A program made the translations under genes and the position numbers. Of a stretch of DNA of 39,075 nucleotides, positions 14,709 to 28,035 are shown one piece after another. The first letter of the stretch is position 1, and every line of letters begins with the position of its first letter. Where the stretch lies: contig CANGZW010000020.1 of assembly GCA_947458405.1 (NCBI GenBank), positions 1-39,075 of the forward strand. Reading direction: 5' to 3'. The notes below the pieces were generated by a model. It had not been told where the DNA came from, did no database searches, and saw only the letters and a list, made by a program, of their open reading frames with translations. Origin of the DNA: Leptospiraceae bacterium (GTDB lineage: Bacteria; Spirochaetota; Leptospiria; Leptospirales; Leptospiraceae).

Positions 14709-15740
14709 TTGATTGGGATGGGCATAGAAACAAGTTGTGATGAAACTTCCATCGGAATAGTCAAAGATGGAAGCCATCTACTGAGTTTACAAACTTATTC
14801 TCAAATCGAACTCCATAATAAGCATAATGGAATAGTTCCTGAAATCGCTTCCCGTTCCCATTTGGAAAAAATAAATACACTCATAGATTTAGCTATCTTA
14901 GAAAGTAATATTAAATTAAAAGATCTGGATTATATTTCAGTAACTAATCGCCCGGGTCTTTTGGGATCACTTTTGGTAGGTGTTCAAACTGCAAAAGCAT
15001 TGGCGTTATCCTTAAATAAACCATTAATACCTATAGATCATTTAGAAGCGCACCTTTCAATTGTAATGCTCGAAAATAAATTTCCGGAGTACCCTTTTCT
15101 TGGCCTCCTGTTGTCCGGAGGAAATTCTGCCATATTTAAAGTTGAATCCCCCGATAACATGAAAACAATTGGTGATACGCTTGATGATGCTTTGGGGGAG
15201 GCTTTTGATAAAGTAGGAATCTTACTCGGAATGGGTTATCCTGCGGGTGCCGAAATAGAAAGAACGGCAAACATGCACTCCAAACAAAAAGGTGATGTTT
15301 CTATATTTCCTAAAATTTTAAAAGAAAAATCTGATAAAGTTCAGTTTTCATATAGTGGAATTAAAACTTCCGTAATACAACACATTAAAAAAAATCCTGA
15401 GTTCAAAAATAAATTACCAAAACTATGTTATGATTTTCAAAATTCTGTTTTTGATTTAGTTGAGAGAAATCTTTTAAAAGCTATTGAGTCGATCGGAATA
15501 AAAACTGTGGTAGCGGGTGGAGGAGTTTTGGCTAATACCACTTTAAGGGATAGAATGAATAAATTAGCAACAAAACATAATTTTCAATTTATTTACCCAG
15601 AGAAAAAGATTTACTGCACAGACAATGGTGCGATGGTTGCCTGTCAGGGTTTCTTATTATTACAAAAGTACAAAACAAATAGCACTGATTTTTCAATAAG
15701 TCCGAGTAGAGAGAATTATAACTATGAAACTAAAGCTTAA
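14709..15740 (+). CDS. tsaD: tRNA threonylcarbamoyladenosine transferase TsaD
   Basis: TsaD, with TsaB and TsaE, transfers the threonylcarbamoyl group to A37 of tRNAs that read ANN codons. At 343 residues it has family length. It shows the N-terminal signature GIETSCDET, the metal-binding histidines in DHLEAHL, the nucleotide-binding GLLLSGGNSAIF, the GEAFDKVG motif with GYPAG, and the C-terminal VAGGGVLANTTLR and CTDNGAM. The start TTG at 14709 directly follows the ctpA stop and gives MIGMGIETSC, aligning exactly with the usual four residues before GIETSC; ATG 14718 would remove three of them. The gene overlaps pssA by 17 bases. Confidence 0.97.
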   Translation: MIGMGIETSCDETSIGIVKDGSHLLSLQTYSQIELHNKHNGIVPEIASRSHLEKINTLIDLAILESNIKLKDLDYISVTNRPGLLGSLLVGVQTAKALALSLNKPLIPIDHLEAHLSIVMLENKFPEYPFLGLLLSGGNSAIFKVESPDNMKTIGDTLDDALGEAFDKVGILLGMGYPAGAEIERTANMHSKQKGDVSIFPKILKEKSDKVQFSYSGIKTSVIQHIKKNPEFKNKLPKLCYDFQNSVFDLVERNLLKAIESIGIKTVVAGGGVLANTTLRDRMNKLATKHNFQFIYPEKKIYCTDNGAMVACQGFLLLQKYKTNSTDFSISPSRENYNYETKA

Positions 15741-16482
15741 CTGGATTCCTAACGCCCTTTCTTTGGGTAATTTGACATTTGGATTTATTGCCATATTAAT
15801 TTCTTCGAATGCAAATCAAATAGGAAAAGATAACTCAAAATTATTTGTCTTATCGGGAATTTTTATATTACTTGCCGCAGTCTTTGATGGGTTTGATGGA
15901 ATGGTTGCCCGTGCATTGAATGCCACAAGTGAGCTAGGGGCAGAATTAGATACCTTAGCAGATTTAACTACATTTGGAATTGCCCCGGGTTTTTTAATGT
16001 ATAAAATGATATTAGAAAATTTTCATGTTTATCTAATCGGAACAAATAGCGAGATACCGATAGGCATGCTAATTTCTGCTATCTTTCCAATTTGTGCGGC
16101 TTACCGCTTAGCGAGATTTACTGTATTACATGATCCCTCTTCTTTTACGGGTCTTCCCTCTCCTATTGCTGGTGTAATTGTGGCTCTATTCCCTATGGTA
16201 TTTCAACAGAATACAATTACCGATATATTAACCATTTCAGGTTTTGTTTTAGTTGCCCTACTTATGGTTTCAACAATCAAATATTCCAAACCTCAAGTAG
16301 CAATTCGGGGTAGATTTTCCAAGGAAAAATTGATGGTGGCTGGTTTTTTATTTTTTGTTATGATGGTCACCGCTTTTTTTATCGCTCCTTTTATCTTTCC
16401 CTATCTTGCATATGGATTTATTTTTTTCTATGTATTTTCAGGAATAATTAGCTTAGTAATACAAATAATTCAGGAATTTTAA
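15724..16482 (+). CDS. pssA: CDP-diacylglycerol-serine O-phosphatidyltransferase
   Basis: This integral membrane enzyme makes phosphatidylserine, the precursor of phosphatidylethanolamine, from CDP-diacylglycerol and serine. The 252 residues include about seven or eight hydrophobic segments. The full CDP-alcohol phosphotransferase motif DG(x2)AR(x8)G(x3)D(x3)D is present with D58, G59, A62, R63, G72, D76 and D80. The opening NWIPNALSLGNLTFGF and the PSPIAG region are characteristic of PssA rather than PgsA. It overlaps tsaD and is followed without a gap by a glycosyltransferase gene, so it lies in the middle of one transcription unit. Confidence 0.93.
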   Translation: MKLKLNWIPNALSLGNLTFGFIAILISSNANQIGKDNSKLFVLSGIFILLAAVFDGFDGMVARALNATSELGAELDTLADLTTFGIAPGFLMYKMILENFHVYLIGTNSEIPIGMLISAIFPICAAYRLARFTVLHDPSSFTGLPSPIAGVIVALFPMVFQQNTITDILTISGFVLVALLMVSTIKYSKPQVAIRGRFSKEKLMVAGFLFFVMMVTAFFIAPFIFPYLAYGFIFFYVFSGIISLVIQIIQEF

Positions 16483-17905: not shown

Positions 17906-18247
17906 ATGAAAATAAAAGTAACTACAAAAAATGATGTTAATATTTTTAAAATCGAAGGTCCTATAAAAGCTGGTAATGAGTTTGAATTAGGAGAAAAAAT
18001 AGAAGAATTTATAAAAAAAGGTGTAGCTCCTAAATTTATAATAGATTTAAAAAAAGTACCTTTTATCAACTCCGCTGGTTTGGGAATATTTTTAAATATT
18101 TTTAAGCATGTAGATGGACTTAAAGGAAGAATGGTTTTTGCTAATTTGAATTCTGATATTGAAAATTTAATGGAGATAACTAAGCTAGCCAGTATTTTTG
18201 AAATATTCAAAAATACTGAAGAAGCAATGGACTCTTTTGACTTTTAA
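17906..18247 (+). CDS. STAS-domain protein (anti-sigma factor antagonist type)
   Basis: A 113-residue single STAS domain of the SpoIIAA/RsbV type. These bind anti-sigma factor kinases or act in partner-switching signalling, and are turned off by phosphorylation of one serine. The motif FINSAGLGIFL around residue 54-64 places Ser56 at the phosphorylation site, with Asn replacing the usual Asp just before it. No anti-sigma kinase or PP2C phosphatase is encoded nearby, so its partners are elsewhere. About 130 non-coding, AT-rich bases precede it. It is separated from the AsmA-like gene by only 8 bases, so the two are probably co-transcribed. Confidence 0.88.
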   Translation: MKIKVTTKNDVNIFKIEGPIKAGNEFELGEKIEEFIKKGVAPKFIIDLKKVPFINSAGLGIFLNIFKHVDGLKGRMVFANLNSDIENLMEITKLASIFEIFKNTEEAMDSFDF

Positions 18248-18255
18248 TAGATAAA

Positions 18256-21231
18256 TTGAAATCCCCCCGGGAAATCTTAAAAAATAAATTTGTATTACTT
18301 ATTCTGGGATGTGTTTTTATTTATCATTCCATATTCAATCAATTAATAGGGCAAATCATATTTGACCACTTTTCACCAAATCTATCAAGCGGAATAATAA
18401 AAGCAAATATCACTAAATTTTCACTATTTTTTGGAATAGCAGCTAGTGATTTATTAATTCAAGAAAAAGATACACAAAACCCTCCCCTTCTAAAGGCAAA
18501 AAATGTTTCACTAAATTATAATCTTCCCCTTTTACTAATTGGAAGATTGAAAATATCAGAAATTCTTTTGATGGATTCTGAAGTTATTATTAATAAATTA
18601 GATAATAAGTATAATTATGAAAAAATATTTATTAGTAAAGAAGAAGAAATTAAAAAAGAGGAAAATAATGAAGCTCAAGATTTAATTAATCTATATTTAT
18701 ATATTAGTATTTATTTAAAAGTTAATATCTCAAATCTAAATATTCAATTTATAGATACCGATAAATCATTTAAAATAAATAATTTCAGCACTTCTTTAGA
18801 ATTAGACTCGAAAAGATTCAATAAATTATATTTAGATTCTTCAATTTTTGATAATATTGAATATCTAAGTTTAATAATTCAGCCAAATAAAATTTTAGAT
18901 ATTTACTACAAAGACAAAGTCTTTGAGTTAAAAGAATTAATTGAATTTTATTTCTTTATAACTAAAGAGGGTAATAATAGTGATAGTTTTAAACATGAAT
19001 TTGTATTTAAATTAAATGGTATCTCACCTACTTTTAATGAAAATAAAATTAAACCATTAACTGTATTACTAAATACTAAGGCATCATTTTTAAATAATAA
19101 ATTGACAATTAATAAAATATTTTTTAGTTTTTTTGATAAGAAATTTATTGATGCTTTTGGACAAATTGATGATGTTTCAAATAAAGATAGTATAGTAAAT
19201 TTAGAATTTATTAATTCTATAATTGATTTGGACTCTATTAATGATTATTTAAAATTATTTAATGGAAAATTTCCTAATATATCAGGGAAGATTCACCTTT
19301 CCCCATTAATAATATCAGGTAATCTACAAAACATAGAATTAAAATGGAGTCCTAATCTTGAAAATATAGGGATTAGTAGTACTGAAAGTAATCATTTCAT
19401 TCAAAATGGTAAATTTAATTTAGAATGTAATTTAAATTTATTTCTAAAAGAAAATGAAAAAGTAAATAAATTATCAAACTTCAAAAAAATTCACCTTGAT
19501 AACTTATATATAAATTATAATAAATCAGAAATCAGATCAACTATAGATTTTTTAAATCCAATATTACAAGGAAATATAAGTATAAAAAATTTAAATCTTA
19601 GTAATTTTTCAAAAAATATAAATGGAAAATTTGGATTAGAAGCTAATATACAAAATAATGATTATAAAAATTTAAATATCTCTCTGAATTCTGAATTAAA
19701 TAATTTTCAATTTTACTCTGATAATTTTAATATTAAACCTTCAAACTTTAAATTAAAAACAGCAGTTGAAATATTTCTAAATTCAGATTTGAAATTTCAA
19801 AGCATGAAATTAAAAAATTCAAATTTAAATTTTTTAAATCCAAATTTTAAAAATAGTGTAGAGTTAATTTCTACCTTAATCGAGTATAAGGATGATTTAA
19901 AAAAAATTATTATAAATGATTCCAAGATAAATATTTTTTTGGATATATTGATTCCATTACTTCCATCTGACTTATCCTCTAACATAAGAAATTTTCAATC
20001 TATTTCAGGTAATCCCTCTATTTTAATTTCTAATCTAAATTATAATCTCATCAATGAAAAATTAATCAATGGGAATATAACATTTGTTTTACCTGGAATC
20101 CATTTAACAGATTTGAAATTTTTATTTAATATAAAATTAAATTCAGAAAATAATAATAATATAGATATTAATGAAATAAATATTAAAGGATTTAAGAATA
20201 TTTTAGCGTTAGACATAAATGGAAAAATAGTAAATAAAAAAATAGAAAATGTAATCAAAAAGGAAATCAATCTTAACATTAGTTCAACTATAATTTCTGA
20301 TAATTTATTTGAACTTACTAAATTTTTGAAATATAGTGGAAAAACAAAATTAGATTTTGTATTAAATAATGACATATTAAATGGAAGCATAGTTAGCGAT
20401 AAAGTTAATTTAGAGATTAACAAAGGTGAATGTCCAGGGATAAATTGCTCTAAATATATTATTAATAATTTATATTTAAATGTATTTTTAAATCATAATT
20501 TGAATTTTAATAATTATTATTCTATCCTAGAAGGAGATAAATCAAATTTAATAAAAACAATAGGAATGAATAAAGAAATCAATTTTAAAATTGATAACAT
20601 ACTAGGGACACATCCTATTGAAAAAGAAAAATCTTTTTCATATATTCAAGGAAATAATAAAGATCCTGGTATTACAGGAAGAATTGATTATAATAATAAT
20701 ATGTTCTCCATCTCAAATTTTAACTTAAAAACTTTAAATGGAGATATCTCCTCTAAAAATATTCAGGTTAATATAAATAGAGGCAACTTAGATAAAATCC
20801 AATACCTAGGAAATCTGCAGGTTAGAGACATAGATTTTACAGAATTAATCCCCTTAGAAAATAGGAAAAAGATTGATGATGGAAAAATTAGAGGTGATAT
20901 TAATTTTTCAGGAGAAAATATGAATGATTTGGTAAATAATACTGAAATATTTTTTAGTATTTATAAGATTGGTAAAGATTTTGGAAATAGTGCAATCAAC
21001 ATAGTTAGTCCTCCCAATATTATTAGGGATTATATAGTGAACAGTTATTCAGTTGATAAAATAGAAGCAGAACTATCTAAAGGTTTAGTCTATATTAATA
21101 TACTATTTAAGCAGGGGATTTTAAGTAATTTATTAACTAAAATAGAAAATAATAAAATCTCTCAAGAAAGAATGCCAATTAATAATTTTTTAAATAGAGC
21201 TCAGGATGAATTTTCAACATATAAAAAGTAA
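18256..21231 (+). CDS. Large AsmA-like (YdbH/TamB-type) envelope protein
   Basis: A 991-residue protein with one N-terminal membrane segment (about 11-30) and a long beta-rich, repetitive remainder. The beginning has the AsmA-type pattern in which a helix anchor is followed by short strands describing a protein layer (LLKAKNVSLNYNLPLLLIGRLKISEILL). The C-terminal 150 residues (DGKIRGDINFSG and on) resemble the end of AsmA-like proteins. Such proteins form long grooves that carry phospholipids between inner and outer membranes. The start is TTG at 18256 with no clear ribosome site, 8 bases after the STAS gene. Composition is extreme: mostly A/T, rich in Asn, Ile, Lys and Leu. It overlaps the DUF1318 lipoprotein gene, as in E. 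coli where ydbH, ynbE and ydbL are neighbours. Family is called from layout and context, not from a strong motif. Confidence 0.65.
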   Translation: MKSPREILKNKFVLLILGCVFIYHSIFNQLIGQIIFDHFSPNLSSGIIKANITKFSLFFGIAASDLLIQEKDTQNPPLLKAKNVSLNYNLPLLLIGRLKISEILLMDSEVIINKLDNKYNYEKIFISKEEEIKKEENNEAQDLINLYLYISIYLKVNISNLNIQFIDTDKSFKINNFSTSLELDSKRFNKLYLDSSIFDNIEYLSLIIQPNKILDIYYKDKVFELKELIEFYFFITKEGNNSDSFKHEFVFKLNGISPTFNENKIKPLTVLLNTKASFLNNKLTINKIFFSFFDKKFIDAFGQIDDVSNKDSIVNLEFINSIIDLDSINDYLKLFNGKFPNISGKIHLSPLIISGNLQNIELKWSPNLENIGISSTESNHFIQNGKFNLECNLNLFLKENEKVNKLSNFKKIHLDNLYINYNKSEIRSTIDFLNPILQGNISIKNLNLSNFSKNINGKFGLEANIQNNDYKNLNISLNSELNNFQFYSDNFNIKPSNFKLKTAVEIFLNSDLKFQSMKLKNSNLNFLNPNFKNSVELISTLIEYKDDLKKIIINDSKINIFLDILIPLLPSDLSSNIRNFQSISGNPSILISNLNYNLINEKLINGNITFVLPGIHLTDLKFLFNIKLNSENNNNIDINEINIKGFKNILALDINGKIVNKKIENVIKKEINLNISSTIISDNLFELTKFLKYSGKTKLDFVLNNDILNGSIVSDKVNLEINKGECPGINCSKYIINNLYLNVFLNHNLNFNNYYSILEGDKSNLIKTIGMNKEINFKIDNILGTHPIEKEKSFSYIQGNNKDPGITGRIDYNNNMFSISNFNLKTLNGDISSKNIQVNINRGNLDKIQYLGNLQVRDIDFTELIPLENRKKIDDGKIRGDINFSGENMNDLVNNTEIFFSIYKIGKDFGNSAINIVSPPNIIRDYIVNSYSVDKIEAELSKGLVYINILFKQGILSNLLTKIENNKISQERMPINNFLNRAQDEFSTYKK

Positions 21232-21805
21232 AATGTCTATTATATACTTATTATTTTTTGTAATAATATTTAATAATTGTTTTTCGCTTTTAAAACCTCC
21301 AGCAATTACTTTTACTCAATCCCCCTCTTCAGCAGAAAAACAAATTATTGGTGACAATAAAGAGTTAGAATCTGATGGTTGGTTGTTATCATCCATTAAA
21401 ACCTCAGCCATTGGTCCCGTTGAATGGAGAAGAGAAAACTTTGATGAGTTTGAATCCATAGAAATTGCTAATGAATATAAATCATTATTAAAAATAATAC
21501 TACATACAACTCCAGAAATAAAAAAATTAAAACAATTAAAATATATAGGTGAGGGACTAAATGGAAGTTTAGCTATATTAGAAAGCAAGAGAGATCCCAA
21601 ATTTGATAAAATATACAACACTAAAGAAGAAGTCAATAGAGTTAAAGATTTAGTAGCCCTTGTAAATGAGACTAGACAAAAAGTAAAAGATATCAGAAAA
21701 AATATAAAAAATAAAAGTAATACACCAGAATATACTTATTTAAATACTGTGGAGTTTGGAGAATATTTTGAGGAGAAAAAAGGAAATTGGATTCTAAAAG
21801 AGTAG
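21206..21805 (+). CDS. DUF1318 (YdbL-like) lipoprotein
   Basis: A 199-residue protein with a signal peptide and spirochaete-style lipobox FNNC (Cys25 counted from ATG 21206). The mature part has SSAEKQIIGDNKELESDGW, typical of DUF1318 lipoproteins. It ends FGEYFEEKKGNWILKE, which matches the YdbL ending (GEYVxxxxGKWxxK), preceded by a helix LVALVNETRQKVKDI. In E. coli YdbL works with the AsmA-like YdbH and lipoprotein YnbE at the outer membrane. Here one lipidated protein could stand in for both small partners. ATG 21206 overlaps the AsmA-like gene by 26 bases and supplies positive charges before the hydrophobic core; ATG 21233 is an alternative. Confidence 0.75.
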   Translation: MNFQHIKSKMSIIYLLFFVIIFNNCFSLLKPPAITFTQSPSSAEKQIIGDNKELESDGWLLSSIKTSAIGPVEWRRENFDEFESIEIANEYKSLLKIILHTTPEIKKLKQLKYIGEGLNGSLAILESKRDPKFDKIYNTKEEVNRVKDLVALVNETRQKVKDIRKNIKNKSNTPEYTYLNTVEFGEYFEEKKGNWILKE

Positions 21806-22863
21806 AGACAATAATCATTGGAGCTGGTATCACGGGATCAGTAATTTCCTATTACTTAAATTCACCTATTCTTGATAAAGCAAAAATGGCTGGTGGTAGA
21901 TGTTCCACCGGTAGGATGAGTTCAAAATATTTATATGATAAGGGTGCAACTATGTATAAAAACTCTTTTCATTATACTATAAATAATAAATCAAATAAAT
22001 TCAATTTGAATAACTATTTAAATAATAAATTTCCTAATTTAAAAACCAAACAAATTTATGATAATATGTTTGTTCCAGAAAACGGTATGATTTCTTTAGT
22101 AAGTAGTTTTATAAAAGAAAATAATTTAATTAGTAATATTAAAATCATAAAAATTATAAAAGAAAACGACTATTTTCTAATCATGGATGATTTAAATAAT
22201 TCTTACTATGCTGAAAAATGTATTATCACATGTCCCTTACCCCAATCCCTTGAGATAATTCAAGATCTACCATTTTATAAAGAATGGGAAGGCTTTACTC
22301 AAAAATATATTGATTATAAAAAGACTCTTGTTGCAACAGGACTTTGGGAAAATTTAAGTTTCAACCTAGATCAAAATCAAAAAATTAGTGAGTTGAATCA
22401 TAAGGATAATTTAGAATATTTTACTATTGAAAGTCAAAAATTTGATGATTATCAAAATTTAATTTTAAGCATTCAATTTTCTAAAGAATTCAGTGAAAAA
22501 AATTTTGAAAATTGGATGGATGAAAATAAAAATTTAAATAAAGATAAAACAGAAATTGTTGAAAATTTTTTTAGTTCAATATTTAGTAAATATAATCTAA
22601 ATTATATATCTCCCTCTCAAATCAGAGCCCATCGTTGGAAATATTCAAATCCAATTGTATCCATGTTTGATAAAGACAATGAAATAAATTTTGATAGCGT
22701 AACCTATCATGATTATATTGAGTTATGTAAAAAGTATAATTTGTATTTAACTGGAGATTGGGTTTTTGGACAGAGGGCTCCTAAATGTGTTTTAGGAGCA
22801 ATTCAACTCTCTTCTATTTTTTTAGGGAAGGATCTTCTATCGGTGGAAGGCTCTTTGCCATAG
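21787..22863 (+). CDS. FAD-dependent amine oxidoreductase, renalase-like
   Basis: A 358-residue flavoprotein. The FAD-binding motif GAGITG spans residues 12-17, followed by KMAGGRCSTGRM, the usual GGR motif of flavin amine oxidases and renalases, where the Arg contacts FAD. The C-terminus has LYLTGDWVFGQRAPKCVLGA, the second FAD contact. This layout matches bacterial renalase-like proteins, which oxidise aberrant dihydronicotinamide isomers, but the substrate here is not known. The start is TTG at 21787, overlapping the lipoprotein gene by 19 bases, with GAGGAG about 12 bases upstream. Its last 50 bases overlap the end of flgJ on the other strand. Confidence 0.8.
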   Translation: MDSKRVETIIIGAGITGSVISYYLNSPILDKAKMAGGRCSTGRMSSKYLYDKGATMYKNSFHYTINNKSNKFNLNNYLNNKFPNLKTKQIYDNMFVPENGMISLVSSFIKENNLISNIKIIKIIKENDYFLIMDDLNNSYYAEKCIITCPLPQSLEIIQDLPFYKEWEGFTQKYIDYKKTLVATGLWENLSFNLDQNQKISELNHKDNLEYFTIESQKFDDYQNLILSIQFSKEFSEKNFENWMDENKNLNKDKTEIVENFFSSIFSKYNLNYISPSQIRAHRWKYSNPIVSMFDKDNEINFDSVTYHDYIELCKKYNLYLTGDWVFGQRAPKCVLGAIQLSSIFLGKDLLSVEGSLP

Positions 22864-26889: not shown

Positions 26890-28035
26890 TTAACGTGATA
26901 AAACTACACATCGATTGGAATTTGTACCTTTTTCATTGTTAGAAATATTCCAACAATTAGATAATTTCGTAAATTTTTGTGAGTTAATTATTGTTTTGAC
27001 CCAATACAATGATGACTTTTCAGCAGATTCAATAACTAGATCATCTAGATTGAGTAATTCTTTTTTGTACAACACATCACCCACTTCCATAACTAGAAAT
27101 GAATTTTTTTTCATCACCCTATGACATTCTCTTAATGTATTTTGAATGAATTCTTTCCAATCAGATGGATTTTGAATAATCGATACACCTGTTAAAAATT
27201 TCAAATCAATATCTAAAAACCATGCTTTTAACCAATTATCATTTATATAATCAACCTTATCCAGGAATGGTGGAGATGTAACAATTAAATCGACAGAGTC
27301 GGTGGGAACCTCTTTCATGTTGTAAGAAAAAGATTGAGTGTATTTATTTTTCTTAGAAAATTCGTGATAAAAAGGTGGAAGTGGATCGGAAAGATCATTT
27401 CTCATCTTTTTTAAAATTCTTTCTTTAATAGCCTTATATTGTGGGGTTTGGTTTCTCTTTTCATTGTTTCTTTTTTGAGAAATAGCAGGTATAGAAATTT
27501 GTGGAAATGTATAGACTGAAAAAAAACCATCTGAATGTCCATGCAAGCGGGAGAGTGCTGTTAACATTATATATGTTAACTCCGGTGATTTATCTTCTTT
27601 GTAAATTTCTTTAAGATTTTTAATTTCCTGTAAAGTTTTTGGATGATAAAAATGATGTAGATCATTGTCTTGTATCTCATCTGATTTTTTCTTATGCAAG
27701 TCTAAACCGTTGATGATTTTTTCCATTTTTTCATAGGATGGTACCACTCTTCTTGATTCGGCTAAGAAAATAGAGAGAGGATTTATATCATTGTGTATTC
27801 CAAAATGACCATCAAGATTAGCCTGGATGGTTGTAGTTCCCCTTCCTCCGAAAGGGTCTAAGATCGTTCTCTTTTTCTTTTTTAGAAAACGATTAATAAA
27901 GTATTGAGGTAATTCTGGTTTAAATGCCGCCCTATAGCTTATGCAGTAATGCAGTGTATGGGATTGCCTTTGTTTTGAAGTCCAAAATTCCCCTATTTCA
28001 TATTTAGATTCTTTCGTTAATAAATTTTTAGCCAT
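26890..28035 (-). CDS. Solitary DNA methyltransferase (N4-cytosine/N6-adenine type)
   Basis: A 381-residue amino-methyltransferase. The SAM-binding motif [16 protein letters not shown] comes first, about residues 58-73, and the catalytic motif TSPPF lies about residue 263. Between them are some 190 residues that probably read the target sequence (including [20 protein letters not shown]). This order, SAM motif then target region then catalytic motif, is not that of the common beta-class enzymes of this group. TSPPF fits either N4-cytosine or N6-adenine transfer. No restriction endonuclease gene is adjacent, so it looks solitary, with a possible role in gene regulation or phage avoidance. The ATG follows an AG-rich ribosome site. 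Confidence 0.85.

Follow-up and report, generated by a model that had tools for sequence, protein, structure and literature searches.

Phospholipid transit to the outer membrane is an open problem of bacterial envelope biology, and the locus described here raises the question of whether spirochaetes have a protein bridge that could serve it. The locus lies in a stretch of 39,075 nucleotides (hereafter the window) from a Leptospiraceae bacterium (assembly GCA_947458405.1, contig CANGZW010000020.1). In this window, the gene of an AsmA-like protein overlaps by 26 nucleotides (nt) the gene of a lipoprotein. An earlier note, made from the sequence alone, took the two for a possible two-part version of the lipid bridge formed in E. 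coli by YdbH, YnbE and YdbL. We find that the two genes are obligately paired in Spirochaetota and, on balance, that their products probably form an intermembrane lipid-transfer bridge. Both open reading frames (ORFs) and their overlap were confirmed in the sequence. The features of the pair are the following.

18256..21231 (+): AsmA-like protein of the LIC_11026 family, 991 residues, TTG start, a predicted inner-membrane-anchored beta-groove bridge (NF047499, AlphaFold2 and fold matches)
18286..18333 (+): predicted N-terminal membrane helix of the AsmA-like protein, residues 11-26 (helix in the model, hydrophobic stretch in the sequence)
21154..21216 (+): C-terminal tail of the AsmA-like protein, residues 967-987, QERIPLAxFLxRAxxE (alignment conservation and model)
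21206..21805 (+): lipoprotein, 199 residues, ATG start (sequence and family alignment)
21278..21280 (+): codon of the lipobox cysteine, Cys25 (IFNN-C; sequence, with the cysteine aligned in nearly all relatives)
21293..21406 (+): conserved N-terminal module of the lipoprotein, residues 30-67, PP-I-T...E+Q-I-GE..ELEKD-W..SS (alignment)
21512..21796 (+): DUF1318/YdbL-like domain of the lipoprotein, residues 103-197 (PF07027, hhalign, and PDB 28oj by profile and fold)

Two genes that belong together

The earlier note had named conservation of the pair in spirochaetes as a check. Co-occurrence was examined in 198 Spirochaetota genomes, and the pair is present in about half of them. The lipoprotein is encoded in 90 and the AsmA-like protein in 93; both are found in 90, and the lipoprotein is never found alone. 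The AsmA-like gene stands by itself in three genomes, two of them with a completeness of 82-83% and the third of 91%. The two genes lie side by side in 75 of the 90 genomes that have both. Most of their stop-to-start distances fall in the range from -26 to +15 nt, with -4 being frequent; larger negative values arise from taking the longest ORF. Because the pair stays neighbouring in 10 families of the phylum, its neighbourhood, as judged from gene order, is not due to chance. In families f3, f5 and f6 (labels of this study) the genes are unlinked throughout, but 12 of the 12 lipoprotein-bearing genomes have both. Their co-occurrence is therefore not a by-product of linkage. The corresponding Fisher p of 1e-53 is not to be read as a probability, since the genomes are related; the argument lies in the spread over 15 families. 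The AsmA-like gene and the lipoprotein gene thus belong together as an obligate pair.

On sequence grounds, the AsmA-like protein of the window is a full-length member of the LIC_11026 family. Its residues 9-990 align to positions 9-1006 of NCBIfam model NF047499, a hypothetical equivalog to which no function is assigned, with 621.2 bits (curated cut-off 325 bits). The Pfam scan of the window proteins gave no match for it; PF05170 (AsmA) is above cut-off in its distant relatives L040, L121 and L134. These results bear out the AsmA-like label of the earlier note, and the comparison with AsmA families that it suggested succeeds through the relatives, not with the window protein itself. Descent from YdbH is not supported. 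PF11739 (YdbH) is above cut-off in none of 149 Spirochaetota genomes, with a single weak match of 16.4 bits in genome G058, and profile-profile comparison with hhalign gives an E of about 0.01 to YdbH, weaker than to AsmA and YhjG. The N-terminus of the protein shows profile similarity to TamB. A sequence search of the PDB with the AsmA-like profile returned chance matches only, and a first contig search using the AsmA-like protein alone gave no matches.

In the source genome, PF04357 (TamB), PF13116 (YhdP) and PF11739 are all without a match; as far as these profiles tell, the pair is not overshadowed there by better-known bridges. The only additional AsmA-family ORF detected in this genome, C3:67325-68683, encodes 668 residues and matches PF05170 with 31.9 bits, barely over the cut-off. 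As a separate observation, AsmA-like matches with 1-2 in-frame stop codons occur in several genomes of f14 (G067, G191, G099, G105, G165, G152 and G078). These stops may reflect pseudogenes, sequencing errors or artefacts at the ends of the matches.

Predicted architecture of the two proteins

The AlphaFold2 model of the AsmA-like protein, based on a 14-row alignment, has a mean predicted local distance difference test score (pLDDT) of 80.7 and a predicted template modelling score of 0.58. About 50 strands account for 58% of the chain. In strands of at least 6 residues, the alternation of hydrophobic and polar residues is 1.18, compared with 0.65 +/- 0.07 in shuffled strands (0 of 2000 shuffles). 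A sheet lining a groove would require such amphipathic strands, but other amphipathic sheets share this property. Among PDB entries, LPD-3, a bridge-like lipid-transfer protein, is the top match of the model in fold (E=7.7e-6, probability 0.82). ApoB100 comes next, and LptD entries follow from E=0.004. The LPD-3 match only points toward a continuous groove spanning the periplasm. As modelled, the protein combines a predicted N-terminal membrane helix with an extended beta sheet that has one hydrophobic face. The groove expected by the earlier note agrees with this mostly beta model, with its amphipathic strands and with its top match.

The C-terminal tail is modelled as a strand (residues 967-974) followed by a helix (975-987). 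It is near-invariant in the alignment of relatives and is kept in most rows of a wider set, and the last 20 residues of the protein rank among its most conserved. This tail is a candidate contact with the lipoprotein. YdbH tails are likewise built of a strand and a helix; their similarity to the AsmA-like tail is not significant.

In the lipoprotein, the C-terminal half is firmly assigned, from profiles and model, as a true DUF1318/YdbL domain. PF07027 (DUF1318) matches residues 103-197 of the window protein with E=0.0076 and 17.2 bits, below the cut-off of 27 bits. The assignment is firm because relatives match PF07027, as do 12 of the 15 that were aligned, with a best value of 3.7e-10 and scores of up to 57 bits. 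A DUF1318 search of the phylum recovers the same lipoprotein gene in 29 of 149 genomes, 21 of them above cut-off. The membership signature of PF07027, G-E...G ... N-x-x-R ... G-E-Y/W ... W, was counted as present in the lipoprotein. Comparison of the family profile with YdbL of eight Proteobacteria by hhalign covers the whole domain (probability 98%, E=1.5e-14). The profile also finds PDB 28oj, the crystal structure of E. coli YdbL (4.4e-5), an entry that labels YdbL a probable chaperone-like protein. In the model of the lipoprotein, mean pLDDT exceeds 85 for residues 81-160 and 181-199. Here too 28oj is the one convincing match in fold, with a probability of 0.99, a TM-score of 0.68 by target length and a Foldseek E of only 0.054. 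Together with the lipobox at Cys25, these matches agree with the view of the earlier note that a single partner is both lipidated and DUF1318-like. No NCBIfam model is above cut-off for the lipoprotein, and a plasmid search with a spirochaete lipoprotein gave no match.

After the lipid anchor and before the DUF1318 domain comes a module of 35-40 residues (the N-module) with the pattern P-P-I-T-x-T...T-A-x-E-+-Q-I-I-G-E...E-L-E-K-D-x-W...S-S. Nowhere else is the lipoprotein so strongly conserved across the phylum, P32, T37, E44, Q46, G49 and W59 being invariant or near-invariant. Folded alone, it has low pLDDT. A YnbE fused at the N-terminus of the lipoprotein was considered from the likeness of DKELEK to DKDVEE and of PIT to PIT. 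It was rejected, the gapless column-shuffle profile test giving p=0.33. With hhalign, only the lipobox of the lipoprotein aligns to YnbE. PF13617 (YnbE) has no match in the source genome, and in none of 149 Spirochaetota genomes does it exceed the cut-off, so that the absence of YnbE seen by the earlier note extends to the phylum sample.

Genes around the pair

The earlier note had also placed the pair in a unit with a STAS protein and a FAD enzyme, downstream of pssA. These genes are present around the pair.

17906..18247 (+): STAS-domain protein, ending 8 nt upstream of the AsmA-like gene (PF01740, 1.9e-19)
21787..22863 (+): ORF with a flavin adenine dinucleotide (FAD)/nicotinamide adenine dinucleotide (NAD)-binding domain, overlapping the lipoprotein gene by 19 nt (PF13450, 1.1e-5)
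15724-16482: PssA, further upstream with GT2 in between (Pfam scan of the window)

With the window proteins as queries, no counterpart of the STAS, FAD or pssA genes was found near the 64 loci compared (flanks of about 1.5 to 8 kb). The proposed functional unit and its pssA link were abandoned, as the linkage is not conserved near any other copy. Elsewhere, several relatives encode a Pkinase-AAA-GAF-SpoIIE protein behind a copy of the pair (L065:8592-13871, also L066 and L067); its domains were scanned in L065 only. Since SpoIIE phosphatases act on STAS proteins and the window copy has one upstream, its control by a partner switch is conceivable.

In most families, a giant third gene lies directly downstream of the lipoprotein gene, on the same strand and usually overlapping it. 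These families are f1 (one of two copies), f2, f12, f23, f26, f31, f35, f39, f41 and f46. The encoded protein has 1,784-2,713 residues where complete and its own lipobox. A propeller of the PD40/TolB-like type is located near its N-terminus (TIGR02800, E=1.5e-25, below the model cut-off), tetratricopeptide repeats (TPRs) lie around residues 940-1110, and about 1,500 residues are without a Pfam match. Examples, among many others, are:

L070:8519-16402 (+): giant lipoprotein
L151:299-8290 (-): giant lipoprotein
L141:1-6162 (-): giant lipoprotein

No giant gene lies downstream of the window copy. None follows the pair in the inspected f14 loci, and none stands beside the lipoprotein gene in the inspected f3 and f5 loci. 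The source genome has a second lipoprotein copy, 46% identical to that of the window, at C61:22161-22709 (L141), located at a contig end and followed by the giant gene. Its AsmA-like gene probably lies in an assembly gap, since the contig ends right there. Because this second copy keeps the giant gene and the window copy is without it, the window copy is most likely an additional one, separated from a cluster of three genes. In the tree of AsmA-like copies, no resolved grouping of the window copy with the copies lacking a giant gene was obtained. Elsewhere in the window, an ORF at 26890-28035 (-), directly upstream of a flgG-like gene on the same strand, carries DPFGG and TSPPF motifs and is probably a DNA methylase.

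The proposed bridge and its relation to known systems

The bridge reading draws on the fold class, the DUF1318 homology, the predicted membrane anchor, the lipidation signal, the conservation, the co-occurrence and the gene overlap. In the mechanism that we propose, the N-terminal helix of the AsmA-like protein would anchor it in the inner membrane, and the protein would span the periplasm as a long beta sheet. Phospholipid acyl chains could move along the hydrophobic face of this sheet. We infer an outer-membrane location for the lipoprotein, a contact of its N-module with the C-terminal tail of the AsmA-like protein, and phospholipid as the cargo. Anchored by its lipid, the lipoprotein would cap the far end of the bridge, and its N-module would most likely add a strand to the conserved tail. 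The YdbL-like domain would act in cis as a chaperone or regulator of this contact. A single lipoprotein would thereby do the work of the separate YnbE and YdbL of E. coli, and its one-piece build would put the chaperone-like domain permanently at the cap. The giant propeller/TPR lipoprotein would probably join the complex in most spirochaetes.

Several points weigh against such a bridge. The N-module has no detectable similarity to YnbE, and the sequence affinity of the AsmA-like protein is with AsmA, YhjG and TamB rather than with YdbH. The TM-scores of its model to LPD-3 and ApoB are low (0.09-0.18), and no functional data on any family member were found in the literature searched. The bridge is supported as a function, not as membership of the YdbH-YnbE-YdbL system. 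Neither refuting outcome named by the earlier note, a missing DUF1318 match or a missing groove, was encountered as far as profiles and model could show. Accordingly, part of the two-part bridge of the earlier note is retained, namely the AsmA-like protein with its amphipathic beta model and the lipidated DUF1318 partner. The kinship with YdbH is not, and in most families a giant gene makes a third part.

YdbL is thought to be a regulator or chaperone. The lipoprotein could likewise merely regulate or chaperone an AsmA-like bridge whose outer-membrane end is in fact provided by the giant propeller/TPR lipoprotein or another protein. Such a role would suit the giant gene that comes after the pair in most families, as well as a DUF1318 domain that is YdbL-like beside an N-module that is not YnbE-like. 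However, the copies of the window, of f14 and of f3, f5 and f6 keep the AsmA-like protein and the lipoprotein without an adjacent giant gene. Moreover, conservation in the lipoprotein peaks in the N-module, beside the lipid anchor, rather than in the YdbL domain, and we regard a purely regulatory role as unlikely. Spirochaetes are rich in surface lipoproteins, and lipoproteins are also the products of two of the three linked genes. Both facts would fit a system that delivers lipoproteins instead of phospholipids to the outer membrane or the surface. A precedent is the AsmA-like GspN, for which lipoprotein transport with type II secretion was reported in Acinetobacter (PMC12802150). Such a cargo is nevertheless quite improbable in our view, as the strict partner is of the YdbL type, the known YdbL system handles phospholipid, and the model comes closest in fold to a phospholipid bridge.

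It appears very unlikely that the system acts like TamB in assembling outer-membrane proteins, or that it takes part in the transport of lipopolysaccharide (LPS). TamB is likewise AsmA-like and resembles the N-terminus of the window protein in profile, and the model has some fold similarity to LptD. Against this, the AsmA-like protein is not a Pfam TamB, since PF04357 has no match in the source genome. The pair is enriched in genomes with LpxC (Fisher p=1.5e-5, the genomes not being independent). Yet it is present in 26 genomes without LpxC, from six or more families, and absent from 43 genomes with LpxC. These counts rule out LPS dependence as a requirement, and because of the 26 genomes the pair is not tied to LPS.

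Beyond the preferred reading of the pair as a lipid-transfer bridge, we tentatively suggest a class of envelope-spanning bridges of the spirochaetes' own. It would combine an AsmA-like spine with a one-piece cap, in which a new strand-donating module is joined to a chaperone domain of the YdbL type; most families would add a giant docking outer-membrane lipoprotein with TolB-like propeller and TPRs. The cap would have arisen independently of YnbE, and the bridge would serve cells with and without LPS. For most AsmA-like proteins, the outer-membrane partner has yet to be identified (PMC10900882). A literature search, thin on subscription journals, found no paper describing the pair and no YdbH-type system in spirochaetes, and a search for LIC_11026 to LIC_11028 found nothing. 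Fusions of DUF1318 to a lipoprotein may also occur outside Spirochaetota. As spine and lipoprotein form an obligate pair whether or not LpxC is encoded, there are two or three named genes through which the question of phospholipid transit becomes directly testable in spirochaetes. The pair would also point to the YdbL domain as the constant element of such bridges, with a replaceable lipoprotein module where the spine is met.

The E. coli YdbH-YnbE-YdbL system is alike in that a gene of the AsmA superfamily precedes and overlaps a lipoprotein gene, and in having a DUF1318 domain. Its inner-membrane anchor, long beta sheet and C-terminal strand-then-helix tail have predicted counterparts in the window. 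YdbL reportedly controls the assembly of YnbE, in work of Kumar et al. from 2024. The ydbH-ynbE overlap is 4 nt, compared with 26 nt in the window pair. The two E. coli genes are translationally coupled (PMC6728339), and the C-terminus of YdbH was proposed to join YnbE by strand augmentation (PMC12045153). Unlike in E. coli, the DUF1318 domain of the window sits inside the lipoprotein, a YnbE sequence is absent, the spirochaete AsmA-like protein falls outside PF11739, and a third, giant lipoprotein gene is usually found.

AsmA, YhjG, TamB and YhdP of E. coli share the AsmA-type N-terminus and the repeated beta-groove fold. They differ in having no DUF1318 lipoprotein partner; the partner of TamB is TamA or TamL. 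Eukaryotic bridge-like proteins of the LPD-3 kind serve other membranes, have other partners and show no detectable sequence similarity to the AsmA-like protein; they are alike in their extended beta groove, which provides the best PDB fold match of its model.

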